A stretch of 64,000 bases of DNA from NCBI RefSeq assembly GCF_031851795.1, contig NZ_CP134696.1, forward strand, positions 3,678,501 through 3,742,500, in the 5' to 3' direction. Positions 20,085 to 27,804 of the stretch are shown one piece after another (the first letter of the stretch is position 1; each line of letters begins with the position of its first letter). The position numbers and the translations under genes are program-made. Source of the DNA: Pontibacter sp. G13. GTDB lineage: Bacteria > Bacteroidota > Bacteroidia > J057. The notes below the pieces were generated by a model, which was not told where the DNA came from, did no database searches, and was given only the letters and a program-made list of their open reading frames with translations.

Positions 20085-20289
20085 AAATGGTGTTTCGACT
20101 TTGATCTTGCAAGATAGGATAAATGCTCCAACTGAGGGAACAAGAGCGACCAACTAAATGGAGAAGAATGAAGGAATTCGACACAGATTTGTCAAAGTTT
20201 CCCCGAATCGAGGATAGCTTGGGAAAACTTAAGAACTTTGGGAGGTAAAACCAATCGGTAATTGGTCACCACTTTCGTATATTTTGCCC

Positions 20290-21360
20290 ATGTCTTGGTG
20301 GAAGAATGCCATACATAAGTCTCTACTTGCAACGGAATCCATCTGGGATGCATATCGCGATCGGTACCAATTGGCTTCTCGACTAGCGAAGCCGCTAATT
20401 ATTCAGGTATACATCGCCTACGCATCTGGCAATAGGGTTTATCTCCATGGACGCGTAATTGTCCGGTCCTTGATCAGGGTAAATCAAGCAGACTCCGCGT
20501 GGACCAATTTTCGAAACTCCATCAAACGCTTCAGGAGGCACGAAATTCCTTATGCGAGCATCAAATTCGCATATCGCGATTTTCAGCTCAACATCGAAGC
20601 GGACAGCGAAGGGTACTTCGATCTCGATACGAATTTGCCTATACCCATCGAATCATCCCACCCAGGCTTTTCGCTCGAACTCGTCCATCCAGATGCCAAA
20701 CATGAAGTGCGCACAGACGCACTATTCCAGTGCATTTCCCCAAGCGGAGATTTCATGATCGTGAGTGATTTGGACGACACAGTCATCAAGACGGATGTAC
20801 ACCACACCACACGCATGATCGCGCATACCTTCTTTCAAAATGCGTACTCTCGCGAGATTTTTCCCGGGACCTCTGGATGGTATCACGCCCTACAGGCGGG
20901 TCCAGAAGGAACTAGCAAAAATCCATTCTTCTATCTCTCCACAAGCCCTGTGCATTTACTCGATCTGCTCCAAGATGTGTTGGACATTCAGCAATTGCCC
21001 AAAGGTCCACTCTTGTTGCAAGACATCAAAACCGACGAATCCACCTTTGTGGTTAGGGGTAGCATCAGGCATAAACTTCCCCACCTTCAACGACTGATGC
21101 AGTTCTTCAAAGATCTCCCAATCGTATTGATCGGAGATAGCGGTCAAAAGGATCTGTTGATTTATGGAACGCTTGCCAAGGAGTATCCAGATCGAATTAA
21201 GACGATCTTCATTCGGGATCTGAAACTGGCCTCCAAGGCAGAACAGGTCGACCGTCAGATAGCAGAACTAAGAGAATTGGGATTTGATATTGTGCTATTT
21301 CCCGATAGTTTGTCTGGACTGAATGATTCCATTTCACGTGGTTACGCCAAATCCTCATGA
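20290..21360 (+). CDS. APP1-type phosphatidate phosphatase (DUF2183)
   Basis: A 356-residue protein with the APP1 catalytic domain, a HAD-fold phosphatase best known from yeast actin-patch phosphatidate phosphatase. The HAD motif DxDxT is D160-L-D162-D-T164, preceded by GDFMIVS as in the family. Further motifs are a conserved serine/threonine stretch (YLSTSPVHL) and GDSGQKDLLIY (HAD motif IV region). The N-terminal ~150 residues resemble the usual beta-rich partner domain. In bacteria the substrate is not established. Its stop overlaps the next start (ATGA), so it is coupled to the unknown gene at 21357 and sits directly upstream of the MukE/MukB-like genes. Confidence 0.85.
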   Translation: MSWWKNAIHKSLLATESIWDAYRDRYQLASRLAKPLIIQVYIAYASGNRVYLHGRVIVRSLIRVNQADSAWTNFRNSIKRFRRHEIPYASIKFAYRDFQLNIEADSEGYFDLDTNLPIPIESSHPGFSLELVHPDAKHEVRTDALFQCISPSGDFMIVSDLDDTVIKTDVHHTTRMIAHTFFQNAYSREIFPGTSGWYHALQAGPEGTSKNPFFYLSTSPVHLLDLLQDVLDIQQLPKGPLLLQDIKTDESTFVVRGSIRHKLPHLQRLMQFFKDLPIVLIGDSGQKDLLIYGTLAKEYPDRIKTIFIRDLKLASKAEQVDRQIAELRELGFDIVLFPDSLSGLNDSISRGYAKSS

Positions 21361-21719
21361 ATCTACTGAACCGAATATTTCCACGCACACAGCTCACAGA
21401 ACAGATGTGGAACGACATTGAGGACATCATTCGCAAATTGCGAGGAGACAACCAACTTCGAGGTCCTATACAGATCCTGCGGAATCGAGATTTGATCATG
21501 ATCCCTTTTGAGCCGGTGTCAGGTGTCCTTTCGGATCAGGCCGTTCATTTACATCTGAAGAATCCATTGGAAGATAGTTTTGCTCATATTTTACCCGGCG
21601 AAGAGGTATTAAGCATGGAAGAGGGGCAAAGTATGGATCAATTCATTGCTAAATTAATCAGCATATCTAGACAAAGAAATTATCTAAAAACGCACCTAAA
21701 ATCCACAGAATATCGATAA
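21357..21719 (+). CDS. Unknown 120-residue protein coupled to the APP1 phosphatase
   Basis: Not recognised. It begins inside the last codons of the phosphatase gene with a 4-base ATGA overlap, so its translation is probably coupled. The N-terminal half predicts an amphipathic helix (LTEQMWNDIEDIIRKLR), followed by beta-like segments and a C-terminal basic helix. There is no signal peptide, membrane segment or cysteine motif. It is separated by 66 AT-rich bases from the MukE-like gene. Confidence 0.7.
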   Translation: MNLLNRIFPRTQLTEQMWNDIEDIIRKLRGDNQLRGPIQILRNRDLIMIPFEPVSGVLSDQAVHLHLKNPLEDSFAHILPGEEVLSMEEGQSMDQFIAKLISISRQRNYLKTHLKSTEYR

Positions 21720-21785: not shown

Positions 21786-22322
21786 ATGGAACTCCCAAAC
21801 CAAACTGCAGCGATATTTGATCGATTGGCCAAGGGTCAATTCATCAGCGCAAATTCAACCGATCCGAATCAACGACTGTACTTCCAATTGTTGACTCAGC
21901 ACGAATCGGCCTTTTCGGAGTTTTTCAACCAAATCGATTTTAAGCTTCATCGCGGGGATGGATATTATTACTTCAGTCGATCTAAATCACTGAAGTCTTG
22001 GGAAGACAAAAAAGATAGAGTGGAGCGGTACATTGACTGGCTTGATCTCCTCCGCAACTGGCGCCCCAAATTGGGGGCTGGCTACCAGTTCAGCTTTGAC
22101 GAACTGCTCGCGGATATTCAATCCCATGCCAAACTCAAGCGCAAGCTTTACCAATTCGTTCCCAGAGGTCATCCCGATTCTTTGGCAGACAGTATTCGTA
22201 CATGGCTGCGACAGCTTGAGCGCGAATCCTTTGTAGAACCCATTGACAAAGGAGAGCAATACCAAGTTTTGTACGCATTTTCCTACTTGGACCACTTCAT
22301 CCAGCAACTGGTTATTCGGTAA
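21786..22322 (+). CDS. MukE/MksE-like winged-helix (kite) subunit
   Basis: A 178-residue protein. Residues 15-66 parallel the MukE pattern: a GQFI start, a helix ending FSEFFNQIDFKLHR, then GDGYYYFSRSK, comparable with the GFFYLRPRS strand of E. coli MukE as I remember it. Residues ~100-175 parallel the second winged helix: FSFDELLADI, a KL-rich helix, SIRTWLRQLERESFVEPI and YQVLYAFSYLDHFI. MukE-type kite proteins bridge the kleisin and DNA in MukBEF/MksBEF condensins. It is 18 bases upstream of the SMC-like gene, as expected for an mksE-mksB pair. The family match is by eye; no profile search was possible. Confidence 0.65.
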   Translation: MELPNQTAAIFDRLAKGQFISANSTDPNQRLYFQLLTQHESAFSEFFNQIDFKLHRGDGYYYFSRSKSLKSWEDKKDRVERYIDWLDLLRNWRPKLGAGYQFSFDELLADIQSHAKLKRKLYQFVPRGHPDSLADSIRTWLRQLERESFVEPIDKGEQYQVLYAFSYLDHFIQQLVIR

Positions 22323-22340: not shown

Positions 22341-25300
22341 ATGAGTCAGATTTCCCGCATCATATTCATGAAAGCGGCAGGGATTTCCTATGCCGAATTT
22401 CCGCTCAATGGACATCTTCAATTAGCAGGTATTTTACCGGAATATGGCAACTCCTGTCTCGGACATGCATTAACCCTATTCCATGAAGGGACTATCATCT
22501 CGGGCGCACCAGAATTGAATACAGCCATCTTGGCTCAACTTTTCCCTACGGAAAGCAGCCGATTAATTTATGAGGTGGGAGGTACAGCAGGCGTATTCAC
22601 TACCCATATTCAACGGGAAAAAGGAGAACTCTCCTTCTGGTTCGCTCAGGGTGAATATGACGATCAATTGTACAAATCGGTTGACGGAACCCCAAAGAGT
22701 ACCCAGTCCATCAGAAAACAACTCAAACAGCTTGGCATCAGGTGTTCTGAGTTGATCCGCACTCGAGGAACCTATTTGGATATACTCAAGGGTGTTTCAA
22801 ATGAATCTGCGCTCGACTCATTTCAATATTCAAGCAAAGAGACAAATGGCATTCACCATTTGCTCTCAAGTCCATTTCAACCTCAATCCCTATGCTCAAA
22901 AACTCAATCATGGATCGAGCTTGGACTTGACGCCAAGAATCCAACCCCACTGAAAGGCCTCAAACAAGCATTAGCTCCAATCGCAGCCTTCAAAGAAGAT
23001 TGGGATTTACTCCACAACCAAATCCCAGCGTTGGAAGAAACATGGGAGACCCAACAAATGGCCAATGAGCAAAAAAGGGCCATTGAAGAACTTCAGAAAA
23101 CATTAAGTGCCCAGTTCGCATATCTCGAAGAGCGATTTGGTCAAATGGAGTTTGTTGACGAATCCATTCAGATTGAAAGTCCTTATCGTCAACAACTATC
23201 CGATTGCCAACAACAAATTCAACAAGCGCAGGAAAAGCTGATTATCATTCGACACGAGCAAGTCAAACTTCTACGGGAAAACCCCCAATCGGCGCAATGG
23301 GAAAGGTTCAGTCAGGCCCTACCGGGAATGATTGACCAATTGACCCACTTGATTGGTCACTACCACAAGGAAGTCTCCAAACTGGATTCTACCCAGCAAG
23401 TGTCAGAACTAAATTCTGGCTATGAAGGGGTCGAGGCTACGCTTACTCGCATACACGATCGAGAAATCGCCTCTCTGCGACAGAAACAGGTAGTTCAAGA
23501 TATACAGCGATCGATTGAGGAATTGCGCAAGGAGCAGGGACAGGCCATTCAGGCTATTCACGGAGAGCAGCAAAACGCAGAACAGGTTTGGATAGCGCAA
23601 AAGCAACTGCTGGAAGAAAAGCGAGATTTGATCTCCAATCAGGTACACGCATATAGCCGAACCTTTCAAGATTGGCTGGAACAAACTGTACCAGACTGGG
23701 AGCAAACGATCGGCAAAGTAGTCAAACCAGAAGTCCTTTCTCATCCCTACCTAGCCCCCAAGCTGGAGCGGATTACGCCATTGCTTTTTGGAATAGAACT
23801 CGACCTGAGTGAACTGCCTCTGCCTAACTTAAGCGAGTTGAAGAATCTGGAATCTCAGGATGCCATTGAGCGGCAATTAATGGAACTGGACAAAGAGTGG
23901 ATTTCGGCCAGTCAGGCATTCAAACGAAAAAGTCAGCAGGTAGAGCGCAAGTTCAGAATCAAGCTTAAGGAGCTGAACAAAGAACTGAAGATAGCTCAGA
24001 ACCACGCCGAGCAACTTCATTTACAAACCCTGCGACTCAGGCATCACCATCGGGAGAATCTTGCCCTAGCTCATCAGATCAGCAGTTCCCGCAAGCAGAA
24101 ATTCCAGCTACATGTCCAAGCTGGTAGAGAAGAACGGTCGAGCGCATTTCAGGAAATCACCCAACATCTATCTGCGATGCAGGAACTGTTGGCGTTTTCG
24201 AGCTCCTCTCATGATACTTCGGACCCGAAAGCACCTTCCTACCATCTGGAAATGGAGGAAAAAATGGCGATGCAAACGTTGGCTTTCTGGCAGGATCGCC
24301 ATTCGCAAATCACCCTTCAGCAAAATGAATGGACAGAGAATCAAACTGATAACCAGCTTCTCCAGACCTCGGAACAGGGGGAATGGGATGCCTTGAAAAT
24401 CCGGTTTGCGGAACTCAAGATTGTAAGACGGCAAGGGCAGTCCACAGAGGAAACCTCGTTAGAAGCATTCAAAGATAAGCTTGAGCAACTTGAAATATTG
24501 GTTGGGAGGCAAGAGCTATTGACCTCCTCCCTCACTGAATCCCTAATGGGTTTGCTGGGCAGATTTAGGCAAGATAATATCTGGCATATCCCGACCTCCC
24601 CTGAATCATGGTTAGACTTTTGGGAAGTGAATGGCCACAAGCTCTTGGATGAAACCTATCGTCAATCAGTTCTAGACACTTTGGCACCAGAACTAGCATC
24701 CTGCATTCCCAACTGCAAGCAATCCCTAGAATATTGGCAAAAAGGGCTTTCCGAAATAGATGAGCTCATCGGTAGATATAACCATACCATGAATTTGCGC
24801 TTTGTTGGAAGACACATACCATTCATCAAGCGGACGACTAAACCAGAATCGTGGATTGCGAATCTTGAAACATTATGGGCATTTATTGCCTCAAATGAAG
24901 ATCAATTGGGAGGCCAGAATTTATTCTCAGATGGCAGTTCGGACGGCCTTAATCATCGAGCATTGGATTGCATGCTCAACGCATATCAATCCATTGAGCC
25001 ATTAGATCTGGGGCTTATTGAGTGGAAAGGTACATACTCCCTAGAGGTGGGATTACAAGGAGAGCAATGTGTACCCTTTTCTCAATTTGTGGACCGCTAC
25101 TCTTTCCACAATTGGGATTTCTCACTCAAGGGCTGGTGGGAGTTCAGCAAGATGATATGGATGGAAATCATAGAGCATTCTGAAACGAAACTTCCCGTTA
25201 CCTGCTCAGAGATTCAGCAATTGCCTCCCAGAGAGATCAATCAGCTAGTTTCCCTGGCCAATCATTATGATCTGATTTTGGTGTGTGAATCTCTGTACCC

Positions 25301-25403
25301 AATCGCAAGCATGGAAAAAACGGCCATATACCTGTTACATCCTAGCCAAGAATCCGCTGTGCAGGTGTTGCCGATTCTTCAACCGACGTCGGATGCTGCA
25401 TAG
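22341..25403 (+). CDS. MukB/MksB-like SMC protein with degenerate ATPase motifs
   Basis: A 1020-residue protein with the SMC layout: an N-terminal globular part (1-~230), two long Gln/Glu/Lys-rich coiled-coil arms (about 230-430 and 510-700) around a hinge-like segment, and a C-terminal globular part. The N-terminal beta strands and loop at residues 22-45 align with the P-loop region of MukB/MksB. The GKS there reads G36-N37-S38, so the catalytic lysine is lost and glycines in the loop are replaced (ILPEY). At the C-terminus SLKGWWEF (928-935) takes the place of the signature motif. LPVTCSEIQQLP (951-962) takes the place of the Walker B aspartate-glutamate strand, with serine for aspartate. 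The fold looks kept while ATP hydrolysis looks lost. Its 3' end overlaps the convergent kleisin-like gene by 25 bases. Confidence 0.7.
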   Translation: MSQISRIIFMKAAGISYAEFPLNGHLQLAGILPEYGNSCLGHALTLFHEGTIISGAPELNTAILAQLFPTESSRLIYEVGGTAGVFTTHIQREKGELSFWFAQGEYDDQLYKSVDGTPKSTQSIRKQLKQLGIRCSELIRTRGTYLDILKGVSNESALDSFQYSSKETNGIHHLLSSPFQPQSLCSKTQSWIELGLDAKNPTPLKGLKQALAPIAAFKEDWDLLHNQIPALEETWETQQMANEQKRAIEELQKTLSAQFAYLEERFGQMEFVDESIQIESPYRQQLSDCQQQIQQAQEKLIIIRHEQVKLLRENPQSAQWERFSQALPGMIDQLTHLIGHYHKEVSKLDSTQQVSELNSGYEGVEATLTRIHDREIASLRQKQVVQDIQRSIEELRKEQGQAIQAIHGEQQNAEQVWIAQKQLLEEKRDLISNQVHAYSRTFQDWLEQTVPDWEQTIGKVVKPEVLSHPYLAPKLERITPLLFGIELDLSELPLPNLSELKNLESQDAIERQLMELDKEWISASQAFKRKSQQVERKFRIKLKELNKELKIAQNHAEQLHLQTLRLRHHHRENLALAHQISSSRKQKFQLHVQAGREERSSAFQEITQHLSAMQELLAFSSSSHDTSDPKAPSYHLEMEEKMAMQTLAFWQDRHSQITLQQNEWTENQTDNQLLQTSEQGEWDALKIRFAELKIVRRQGQSTEETSLEAFKDKLEQLEILVGRQELLTSSLTESLMGLLGRFRQDNIWHIPTSPESWLDFWEVNGHKLLDETYRQSVLDTLAPELASCIPNCKQSLEYWQKGLSEIDELIGRYNHTMNLRFVGRHIPFIKRTTKPESWIANLETLWAFIASNEDQLGGQNLFSDGSSDGLNHRALDCMLNAYQSIEPLDLGLIEWKGTYSLEVGLQGEQCVPFSQFVDRYSFHNWDFSLKGWWEFSKMIWMEIIEHSETKLPVTCSEIQQLPPREINQLVSLANHYDLILVCESLYPIASMEKTAIYLLHPSQESAVQVLPILQPTSDAA

Positions 25404-26497
25404 GCGAGTAAATAGGAAACACCATCTTTGGTAGATGCCTCCCCGCTAAAATTCAGATCTTGAGCATAAGCTGCCACCCAATGGGCATAGATTTGGAAAA
25501 TCTGTACAGTGGCTGTTTTTGATGGCAAATAGGCAATCAGGAAGGAAATTAAATCCTCTCCAGATTTCTGAAATGCATCCCGCATGGGCTGATCGATCAT
25601 CATACTGAGGCTTGGCACTGATTCCTCAACTTGATGCGGCTCTTCCGCTTTTGACGGAATGGTGGATTTCGACTTGGTGGATAGTTTCTGGAGACTTGCC
25701 TGATCATCCAAATCTGCCAGATCAATCCAACCCGATTTCATTTGCAAGGGCTGGAAAAGTACCGCCTGATTCTGAATAAGCAGTTCTTTCAAATTGGTAT
25801 CGAATAACAGTCTCCCATCATCTTTCAATTTTTTCAGCGCCTTAATGTGTCGGATATCATTAGCCTCTTCCTCGACTTCAGAAGAGTATTTTTGAGTCAA
25901 TTCTTCAAGCGCCCCATCCATTTTCTCGGAGAGCCCCAATAATGCCATTTCTGTATGAGGGGTATTAAATGCAGGAGAAATCAAGATTTGAGATACAATC
26001 TCCTGAAGCTTAGAAATGGACATTCGAAATTCCTCATTAAGATCACGACTGGATCCATGGGTAATTTCACTCTCGGTATCTTCAAAACGGGGAAGGGAAA
26101 GAGGAATTTCTGCGATTAAGCCATGGCTCAACATTTGGATGGAATCCTCTAATCGATCCTGATTTTTCGAAGTCTGATAGGTTTGTAGGAGCTCACGAAG
26201 CTGACGAATGGAGGCCAAAATCGAATAAGGTTCCGATCTTGAAATATCACCAGTCAACATATCGATAGCCAAAAGAAATTTGGGACTCAGGCTGACAAAG
26301 CCAGAAGATTCCAAAATCCATCCCAAGGCTAGGAGATCTCGATATTCCGAAGGATGATTTCGTTTCCAGCTTAGGATGGCAGATTGCCTTTCTCGGGAAG
26401 GGGCAAATCTCAAGTCCATCAGTTGAGTCAATATTCGCTGATCAGCACTCAGGCGTTGAATCATTTCCCGAAAGGAAATCCGAATGGGTTCAGACAT
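25379..26497 (-). CDS. Candidate MukF/MksF-like kleisin
   Basis: A 372-residue cytosolic, mostly helical protein with no signal peptide or membrane segment. The N-terminal ~90 residues look like a winged helix (LLALGWILESSGFVSLSPKF), followed by a helical bundle with two long helices (70-260). The C-terminal ~55 residues (FLIAYLPSK, then a helix, AQDLNFSGEAS and LLAYAASDV) recall the C-terminal winged helix of MukF, which docks on the SMC head. Size, helical content and position next to MukE- and MukB-like genes fit a kleisin. However, it is encoded on the opposite strand, and sequence support is weak. It follows the HD gene by 18 bases, so the two form an operon. Confidence 0.45.
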   Translation of the reverse strand: MSEPIRISFREMIQRLSADQRILTQLMDLRFAPSRERQSAILSWKRNHPSEYRDLLALGWILESSGFVSLSPKFLLAIDMLTGDISRSEPYSILASIRQLRELLQTYQTSKNQDRLEDSIQMLSHGLIAEIPLSLPRFEDTESEITHGSSRDLNEEFRMSISKLQEIVSQILISPAFNTPHTEMALLGLSEKMDGALEELTQKYSSEVEEEANDIRHIKALKKLKDDGRLLFDTNLKELLIQNQAVLFQPLQMKSGWIDLADLDDQASLQKLSTKSKSTIPSKAEEPHQVEESVPSLSMMIDQPMRDAFQKSGEDLISFLIAYLPSKTATVQIFQIYAHWVAAYAQDLNFSGEASTKDGVSYLLAYAASDVG

Positions 26498-26515: not shown

Positions 26516-27766
26516 TTAGGAAATAACACCTTGGAAAAAGAGAATGTAGGTAATCATGAATACCAAAATACTGGCAGCCATTCCATACATGAAAATATTG
26601 TATGCAATCCTGAGCAGCATAAACTTCTTGGCAAGTACCCTTCCAAGGAAGTAAATATCCTTGGACATGCTACCGTAGAGATAGTCAGCATCCTTCATCA
26701 TTTGGTCAATTCCCCATTGGAATGTCTCAATGTCCATTCGGTAGAAATTGCCAAAAAATAGGAGGTTGGTCCGCTTAGCCAAGATATCCTCCCTCGTGAA
26801 CACCCCAGAATTCACCTTGGGTCTCGTTGCAAGAATGGCAAAAACCATCGTAGTCATGCAGGATACCAAAATCAAGATACTGGGATAAATGAGGTAGTGG
26901 TATTGATCGAATATCCCAAAGGCATTGGTGAAGACGATCGAAATGATGATCGCATTGATCGACAACAGAATGTTGGCCTTGGAATCGGCAATCGAGCTCA
27001 AATTGATGTGCGTCCGGTAGGTGTTGCGAAACATCGTTTCAATCCCACGATCAGGCTGTTGCTCTTTGATCTTTTTGAGTTTCTGCTTCAATCTTTTGAC
27101 TTCGGCATCTTGTTGCTCGAAGTGTGTCTGGATAGCTGCCTGATTTTCCAACAATCTCTTCTTTTTGAGCTTCTTACGGGCCTTTTTCAACAAGGCGGTA
27201 TTCTCACCCTTTGCGGGTTCCAATTTGGTTAGGGCATATTCGGTGTAGTACTGATAATCCCTGAAGAACCGATAATTGAAATCCAGCCATTCCTCCTCTG
27301 AGAACTCTCGATCACAGAAGACCTTCCACTCTTGTCTGATTTTCTCAGAATTATCGAGTGCTTCTGGCAGGGCCAGATTATAGAGATCAGCATCTTTCAA
27401 TACTGCTTGAAGCCGATCTTTGGGTTCCTGATCAAGTCGTGTTGCAAAGATGAGCCCTTCCACTTGCTCAATCATGGTAGCCGGCATCTCCCTTTTTTCA
27501 AGGAAATCACGTGCAATCCGCATAGAAGCCTCTTCATGACCGATATAAGTTTCAATATATCCCAAGTCATGAAACCAAGCGGCGAGCTTGATCAAATCCA
27601 TTTGGTCAGAGGTGAGTCCGACCTCTTGGCCGATTTCTACGACGGCATCGACAACCTGTTCAGTATGCCCTACTGTGTGATAGGTGTAGTCACCATTGAG
27701 CTGGTGCACCAAAATTTCACGAGCATAGGCTTCGGCATCTACCAAGAGTTTTTCTTCCACCCGCAT
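26516..27766 (-). CDS. HD-domain phosphohydrolase fused to a Pycsar-effector-like membrane domain
   Basis: A 416-residue protein. Residues 1-~190 form an HD domain, with ligands visible as YHTVGHTEQV (H30, H34), H66-D67 in AAWFHDLGY and a later aspartate in LKDADLY. A highly charged coiled linker (~200-250) follows. The C-terminal ~160 residues begin with the FRNTYRTHINLSSIADSKANILLSI-type segment of DUF5706, the transmembrane module of Pycsar effectors, and have about four hydrophobic helices. HD domains hydrolyse nucleotide phosphoesters, so a role in cyclic or phosphorylated nucleotide signalling at the membrane is likely. The ATG at 27766 is chosen over an in-frame GTG at 27796. It lies upstream of the kleisin-like gene. 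Confidence 0.8.
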   Translation of the reverse strand: MRVEEKLLVDAEAYAREILVHQLNGDYTYHTVGHTEQVVDAVVEIGQEVGLTSDQMDLIKLAAWFHDLGYIETYIGHEEASMRIARDFLEKREMPATMIEQVEGLIFATRLDQEPKDRLQAVLKDADLYNLALPEALDNSEKIRQEWKVFCDREFSEEEWLDFNYRFFRDYQYYTEYALTKLEPAKGENTALLKKARKKLKKKRLLENQAAIQTHFEQQDAEVKRLKQKLKKIKEQQPDRGIETMFRNTYRTHINLSSIADSKANILLSINAIIISIVFTNAFGIFDQYHYLIYPSILILVSCMTTMVFAILATRPKVNSGVFTREDILAKRTNLLFFGNFYRMDIETFQWGIDQMMKDADYLYGSMSKDIYFLGRVLAKKFMLLRIAYNIFMYGMAASILVFMITYILFFQGVIS

Positions 27767-27804
27767 CTGTATCGAAGGATTGAAATTTCTTGTCACAAAT
27801 TATC

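Follow-up and report, generated by a model that had tools for sequence, protein, structure and literature searches.

The window, i.e., the whole stretch of 64,000 nucleotides of Pontibacter sp. G13 DNA analysed here, contains the gene of an SMC protein that has lost its motor residues. This mksB-type gene (22341..25403, + strand) encodes 1020 amino acids; alignment, AlphaFold2 and Foldseek identify the product as an SMC protein without the Walker A lysine, the ABC signature and the Walker B aspartate. The current view of SMC complexes is that of motors driven by ATP. On balance, it is probable that the MksBEF complex discussed here stems from an ancestor resembling Wadjet/MksBEFG, that the nuclease has gone, that the motor was lost stepwise and that the remainder was kept as a passive scaffold working independently of ATP.

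The mksB gene and its former ATPase motifs

The mksB frame extends as a single open frame from ATG to TAG over 1020 codons, and its GC content by codon position resembles that of the adjoining genes. The closest relatives of the protein are MksB-like proteins that adjoin mksE in the same GTDB family; further MksB-like relatives are found at 28 loci outside the family, mostly Bacteroidota by title. The ORF, the homologues and the alignment confirm the original prediction of an MksB-type SMC with ATPase motif losses in an intact frame, and the five sequence strings quoted there all occur at the places or in the order then given.

One might think of an ordinary coiled-coil protein that lies beside mksE by chance and is no SMC at all. 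Pfam PF12128 indeed recognises only arms and hinge (residues 214-597; 35 bits at a cut-off of 31) and leaves the heads uncovered, and a sequence search of the PDB yielded nothing meaningful, just three matches no better than chance (E 0.16 to 1.1). Such an explanation is nevertheless almost inconceivable. The MksB of the family genome G006 is a reciprocal BLAST match over 1012 residues; the motif-intact MksB of G009 matches the N-terminal residues 3-152 with 32% identity; an MksB profile matches the window protein along its full length, and MukBEF heads are its best fold matches. This chain of homologues rules out an ordinary coiled-coil identity. PADLOC assigned no family to the protein, and the genome of the window yielded no second MukB/JetC-like protein.

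The AlphaFold2 model, for which 26 sequences served as input, is of moderate confidence (mean pLDDT 65.6, pTM 0.35). It comprises N-terminal strands, a helix at the place of the P-loop helix, two long helical arms, a hinge and the C-terminal half of the head. In Foldseek, MukBEF chains take the top four places among the PDB matches of the model (best 9gm6_A, E 3.3e-11); chains of the Wadjet complex JetABC come next. The model and these matches agree with the predicted SMC-like layout, in which both termini are part of an SMC head. A second structural alignment, in which coiled coils predominate and which mainly probes residues 315-628, found the N-terminal domain of MukB (1qhl) at Z 11.0 and an rmsd of 3.5 A over 154 residues, with coiled coils ranking above it. 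Residues 25-34 of the model have a pLDDT below 50, and the geometry of the pocket can therefore not be read from it.

The register of the motifs was obtained by aligning the protein with 20 MksB sequences from beyond the family. The former Walker A motif, GILPEYGNS (residues 30-38; 22428..22454, + strand, coordinates derived from the residue numbers), is preceded by a loop that is one residue longer than in the outside proteins. From the second glycine onward, GNSCLGHALTLFH is in register with GKSTLLRAILFFY, which puts Asn37 in the position of the Walker A lysine. The signature GS(x)GTD has no alignable counterpart; its former region, SLKGWWEF (residues 928-935; 25122..25145, + strand), lies where the alignment is uncertain. 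In the former Walker B strand, LPVTCSEIQQLP (residues 951-962; 25191..25226, + strand), TCSEI is aligned to MMDEI. The Mg-binding aspartate is replaced by Ser956, whereas the position of the catalytic glutamate is still occupied by Glu957. YDLILVCESL and MEKTAIYLLH follow as residues 976-985 and 991-1000, respectively. The early statement that all three ATPase motifs are destroyed is thus correct for Walker A, the signature and the Walker B aspartate, and slightly too strong in view of the retained Glu957.

By its descent from MksB, its head-arm-hinge-arm-head layout (moderate confidence), the neighbouring mksE and the mksF in the same genome, the protein is an MksB; what it lacks are the Walker A, signature and Walker B motifs of an ABC ATPase. 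Because the lysine, the signature and the aspartate are lost, with Glu957 kept, we class it as a motor-less descendant and not as an SMC ATPase.

Partner genes and the missing nuclease

Judged by sequence, MksB, MksE and MksF are all present at the window locus. The gene upstream of mksB, first described as MukE-like, is mksE (21786..22322, + strand; 178 amino acids; PF21980, E 4.1e-29), which encodes the KITE subunit and has orthologues in seven of 13 family genomes. Its end is separated from the start of mksB by 18 bases.

The kleisin gene mksF (25379..26497, - strand; 372 amino acids) is divergent; it is convergent with mksB and overlaps its last 25 bases. The family libraries gave it no name. 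It was recognised by phmmer (E 5.3e-6) and, among 569 ORFs, by a profile of outside MksF proteins (E 1.4e-16). Its AlphaFold2 model is weak (mean pLDDT 53.5) except for a C-terminal part that resembles a winged helix, and its best Foldseek matches are chains of Jet complexes at E 9e-3 to 0.16, none of them at or below 0.001. The profile search detected MksF in six of the seven genomes carrying mksE and mksB, the sequences of the window, G009 and G004 having themselves been part of the profile; in G007 this search did not find it. The mksF of G006 is weak (E 1.2e-4) and lies about 75 kb from its mksB, the MksF of G004 is short, and in most carriers mksF is placed outside the mksB operon. Directly beyond the mksF of the window (26516-27796, - strand), a 426-residue protein with HD and PycTM (Pycsar effector-type membrane) domains is encoded.

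Directly upstream of mksE there is an ORF of 120 amino acids (21357..21719, + strand) that belongs to no family. A similar ORF is found at the same place in G006 (26% identity over 117 residues, E 2e-8), and its product could be a further subunit. The stretch 20284-21360 (+ strand) encodes a bacterial protein with an APP1 phosphatidate phosphatase catalytic domain (PF09949, E 1.2e-43).

A JetD/MksG-like gene (about 285-300 amino acids; DUF7281; PADLOC JetD1, E 1.4e-5) is present at 25 of the 28 loci outside the family; L095 lacks it, as do two contigs that break off early. Neither the window nor the other family loci contain a match to it. A profile search for JetD/MksG-like nucleases found none in the 13 family genomes at E 0.001, a search that a very divergent or different nuclease could escape; the control, G054, was recovered at E 7e-137. 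The JetD/MksG-like Toprim nuclease that belongs to Wadjet/MksBEFG was thus not found in the family, which makes a defence by plasmid cleavage unlikely. As to the gene itself, the one at L097:13708-14559 is known to Pfam only as DUF7281, and its IENP and GDFDFAG resemble a Toprim site by eye. In G007 and G009 (L086:11758-13008 and L078:734-2047), an ankyrin-repeat-like protein is encoded after mksB, where the nuclease is found elsewhere; the two proteins share 33% identity over 333 residues.

Losses and constraint within the family

The family sample consists of 13 genomes of one GTDB family with a completeness of 86-100%. Seven of them carry the mksE-mksB pair (the window genome, G003, G004, G005, G006, G007 and G009), and in all seven mksE adjoins mksB. 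G002, G010 and G012 contain other MukB-like proteins (L041, L042 and L043) with intact motifs beside other mksE-like genes; they were left out of the carrier count. In G012 the MksB profile also matched weakly (42 positions, E 1.7e-4), a hit that was set aside. Outside the family, GK(S/T) is found at 27 of the 28 loci and the complete set of three motifs at 25, several of these loci being near-copies of one another; near-copies were dropped from the sequence sets A3 and A7 before counting. Two of the three exceptions, L108 and L109, are cut off by the contig end, and the third, L111, has a broken frame.

The carriers have lost different residues. G009 has kept GKS and, on a second contig, GSQGTD and IDE. 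GKT is kept in G003 and G004, where the glutamate is replaced by asparagine and aspartate, respectively. In G006, lysine has become alanine and glutamate arginine; in G005, lysine has become arginine, Walker B is unrecognisable and the length is down to about 850 residues. G007 has GKE instead of GK(S/T) and no signature; an ADE two residues off the aligned place may be an intact Walker B. The expectation that orthologues next to mksE would share the losses of the window protein was therefore half right: losses of motor residues are common there, but they differ, and G009 keeps all three motifs. If G007 is left aside, all four combinations of a kept or lost lysine with a kept or lost glutamate are present in the family, which implies that at least one of the two residues was lost more than once, unless Glu957 of the window protein is a chance return. 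With one motif-intact member and differing losses in its relatives, the loss of the motor took place within the family and is not the mark of an ancient motor-less class. As G003, G004 and G007 have kept the Walker A lysine, some of the proteins may still bind ATP.

A species tree built from SMC and UvrB (12 genomes) unites six carriers in one group (100/100). It does not settle their inner order, and no order of losses is therefore claimed. G005 appears in no species tree, since neither SMC nor UvrB was found there. A 100/100 branch of the MksB gene tree separates the seven family proteins from all others. Among the seven, the branch of G009 is the shortest (1.99), those of the other members range from 3.1 to 7.3, and long-branch effects limit the use of this tree to the family grouping. 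The window and G006 have a gene order in common: an OmpA-like gene, two further ORFs, YceD, a hexapeptide protein, the 120-residue ORF, mksE and mksB. Grouping and gene order together point to vertical inheritance of mksE-mksB at one chromosomal place. An ordinary SMC with all three motifs is present in 12 of the 13 family genomes and was not found in G005. The SMC of the window genome is 64-69% and its UvrB 77-81% identical to those of G003, G004, G006 and G007; the window MksB is 16-21% identical to its six family relatives.

The best conserved stretch in an alignment of 26 sequences is the hinge (residues 438-500; 23652..23840, + strand). About nine positions are invariant over these sequences, in the hinge or its neighbourhood, a count that includes G151 of the head; W445, L446, P451, W453, G458, K459, L466, P473 and G484 are invariant. 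For the comparison with outside proteins a ruler of divergence was needed. The mksB ends of L090 and L110 are nearly identical, although their titles read Melioribacter (Ignavibacteriota) and Nitrospirae MAG, which suggests recent transfer or misbinning. On account of these near-copies, UvrB identity was dropped as the ruler for outside MksB, and MksE was used. In 21 family pairs (MksE identity 31-44%, mean 37%), N-terminal head, hinge and C-terminal head are 24, 46 and 17% identical; the corresponding values are 43, 41 and 45% in 53 of 136 outside pairs (MksE identity 30-45%, mean 37%; the 83 pairs beyond this range were excluded). These pairs are not independent of one another, but the contrast is large. 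Going by the identities, the constraint in the family has moved from the heads to the hinge.

The eroded heads also bear on the idea that the window protein is still an ATPase, its Glu957 and GNS loop allowing weak ATP binding and hydrolysis. The kept glutamate, the helix predicted after the former P-loop and the lysine retained in several relatives would fit this idea. It is very improbable, however, with lysine, signature and Walker B aspartate missing together and the head identity in the family down to 24 and 17%.

The hinge, being the sole domain with retained identity (46%), might itself be the kept function, instead of the bridging of DNA by the complex, and dock a partner such as topoisomerase IV. 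A precedent exists in E. coli, where the MukB hinge is described as binding the C-terminal domain of ParC and stimulating topoisomerase IV (PMC3950513). By this analogy MksB would be a recruitment platform, which we regard as distinctly unlikely, since dimerisation alone would explain the conservation of the hinge and a platform would need neither MksE nor MksF.

The main rival explanation is slow decay. After the loss of the nuclease, the complex would have become dispensable, and mksB would be drifting under weak or no selection towards its own loss. The mksE-mksB pair is indeed missing from six of the 13 family genomes, heads and arms have very low identity, the operon is broken up, with F missing or short in some carriers, and each lineage has lost different residues. 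The state of the frames speaks against drift: the six complete mksB frames of the family are all open at about 20% identity, whereas simulated neutral drift of the window gene (100 runs) produced a first stop at 98.0% identity on average and at 93.0% at the latest. The hinge, moreover, shows as much conservation as that of motor-competent relatives when MksE divergence is matched, mksE is retained beside mksB in every carrier, and no loss is required within the single group that the six carriers make up in the species tree. Decay is a serious contender, if an unlikely one. Selection for a non-hydrolysing SMC, as originally proposed, is made plausible by the open frames, the conserved hinge and the retained MksE, which is less than proof.

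A proposed scaffold without a motor

We thus prefer to see in the complex a passive scaffold. A chromosomal MksBEF would have descended from a Wadjet/MksBEFG-like ancestor; the nuclease subunit would have been lost in this bacterial family and the motor residues of MksB step by step. Two MksB chains would be joined at the conserved hinge and carry, via their long arms, MksE and MksF at the heads. Such a motor-less complex would bind and bridge DNA without ATP, and the ordinary SMC-ScpAB would supply the motor work. The sequences themselves establish the homology, the lost motor residues, the retained E and F, the open frames, the failure to find a nuclease and the higher conservation of the hinge relative to the heads. 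We here infer that ATP hydrolysis is absent, that the hinge dimerises and that the complex binds DNA, with bridging as its kept function.

Related proteins make such a function conceivable. MksB of C. glutamicum is reported to bind linear and circular DNA independently of ATP (PMC10123090). MukB alone compacts DNA, and ATP inhibits the compaction, as described in PMC9234588; cohesin, according to PMC7875533, bridges DNA without ATP. Given this ATP-independent DNA binding, the complex could have stayed useful as a scaffold after the loss of the nuclease, when the motor was no longer needed.

A more specific version we hold only tentatively, with somewhat less than even confidence. The nuclease would have gone first, followed by recurrent losses of ATPase residues in individual lineages, while selection preserved hinge, arms, MksE and MksF as a chromosome scaffold independent of ATP; among SMC complexes, this would be the first one known to function without an ATP motor. 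Some observations speak against a scaffold: the fast evolution of arms and heads, the G005 protein of about 850 residues, the position of mksF outside the operon in most carriers, and an F that was not found in G007 and is short in G004. They would equally be expected under decay. The Glu957 of the window protein, the Walker A lysine of G003, G004 and G007, the possible Walker B of G007 and the low confidence of the model at the pocket also count against it.

One motif-intact protein and six relatives at differing stages of motor loss amount to a natural experiment that separates motor from scaffold. The conserved remainder, i.e., hinge, MksE and MksF, points to an SMC function that is possible without ATP. 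What SMC proteins do without ATP, a question approached until now through mutants, thereby becomes testable in natural proteins, and a concrete route by which evolution leads away from plasmid defence, after nuclease loss, comes into sight. In the open-licence literature we found no description of a motor-less SMC complex.

MksBEF complexes without a nuclease are known and contribute to chromosome organisation. The complex of the window is like them in lacking the nuclease and in existing beside an ordinary SMC, but its MksB has no Walker A, no signature and no Walker B aspartate; we know of no report of motor loss in the known nuclease-less MksBEF. With MksBEFG/Wadjet (JetABCD), e.g., the anti-plasmid MksBEFG described for C. 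glutamicum (PMC10123090), it shares SMC, MksE and MksF, and the MksB relatives outside the family occur with a JetD/MksG-like gene. In contrast to MksBEFG/Wadjet, no nuclease gene was found in the family, motor residues are lost, and the mksF of the window lies outside the operon.

The nearest precedent is LmuB of Lamassu, a natural SMC-like protein in which the Walker B glutamate is replaced by glutamine and which is thought to hydrolyse little or no ATP (PMC10586767). As described there, LmuB is a small Rad50-like defence protein that has kept ATP binding, whereas the window MksB has lost the P-loop and has long arms and a hinge. The hinge-less SMC variants of marine origin (PMC12153180) are likewise an SMC clade that has lost one defining module. 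They are described as having lost the hinge and kept the ATPase; the MksB of the window is the reverse.
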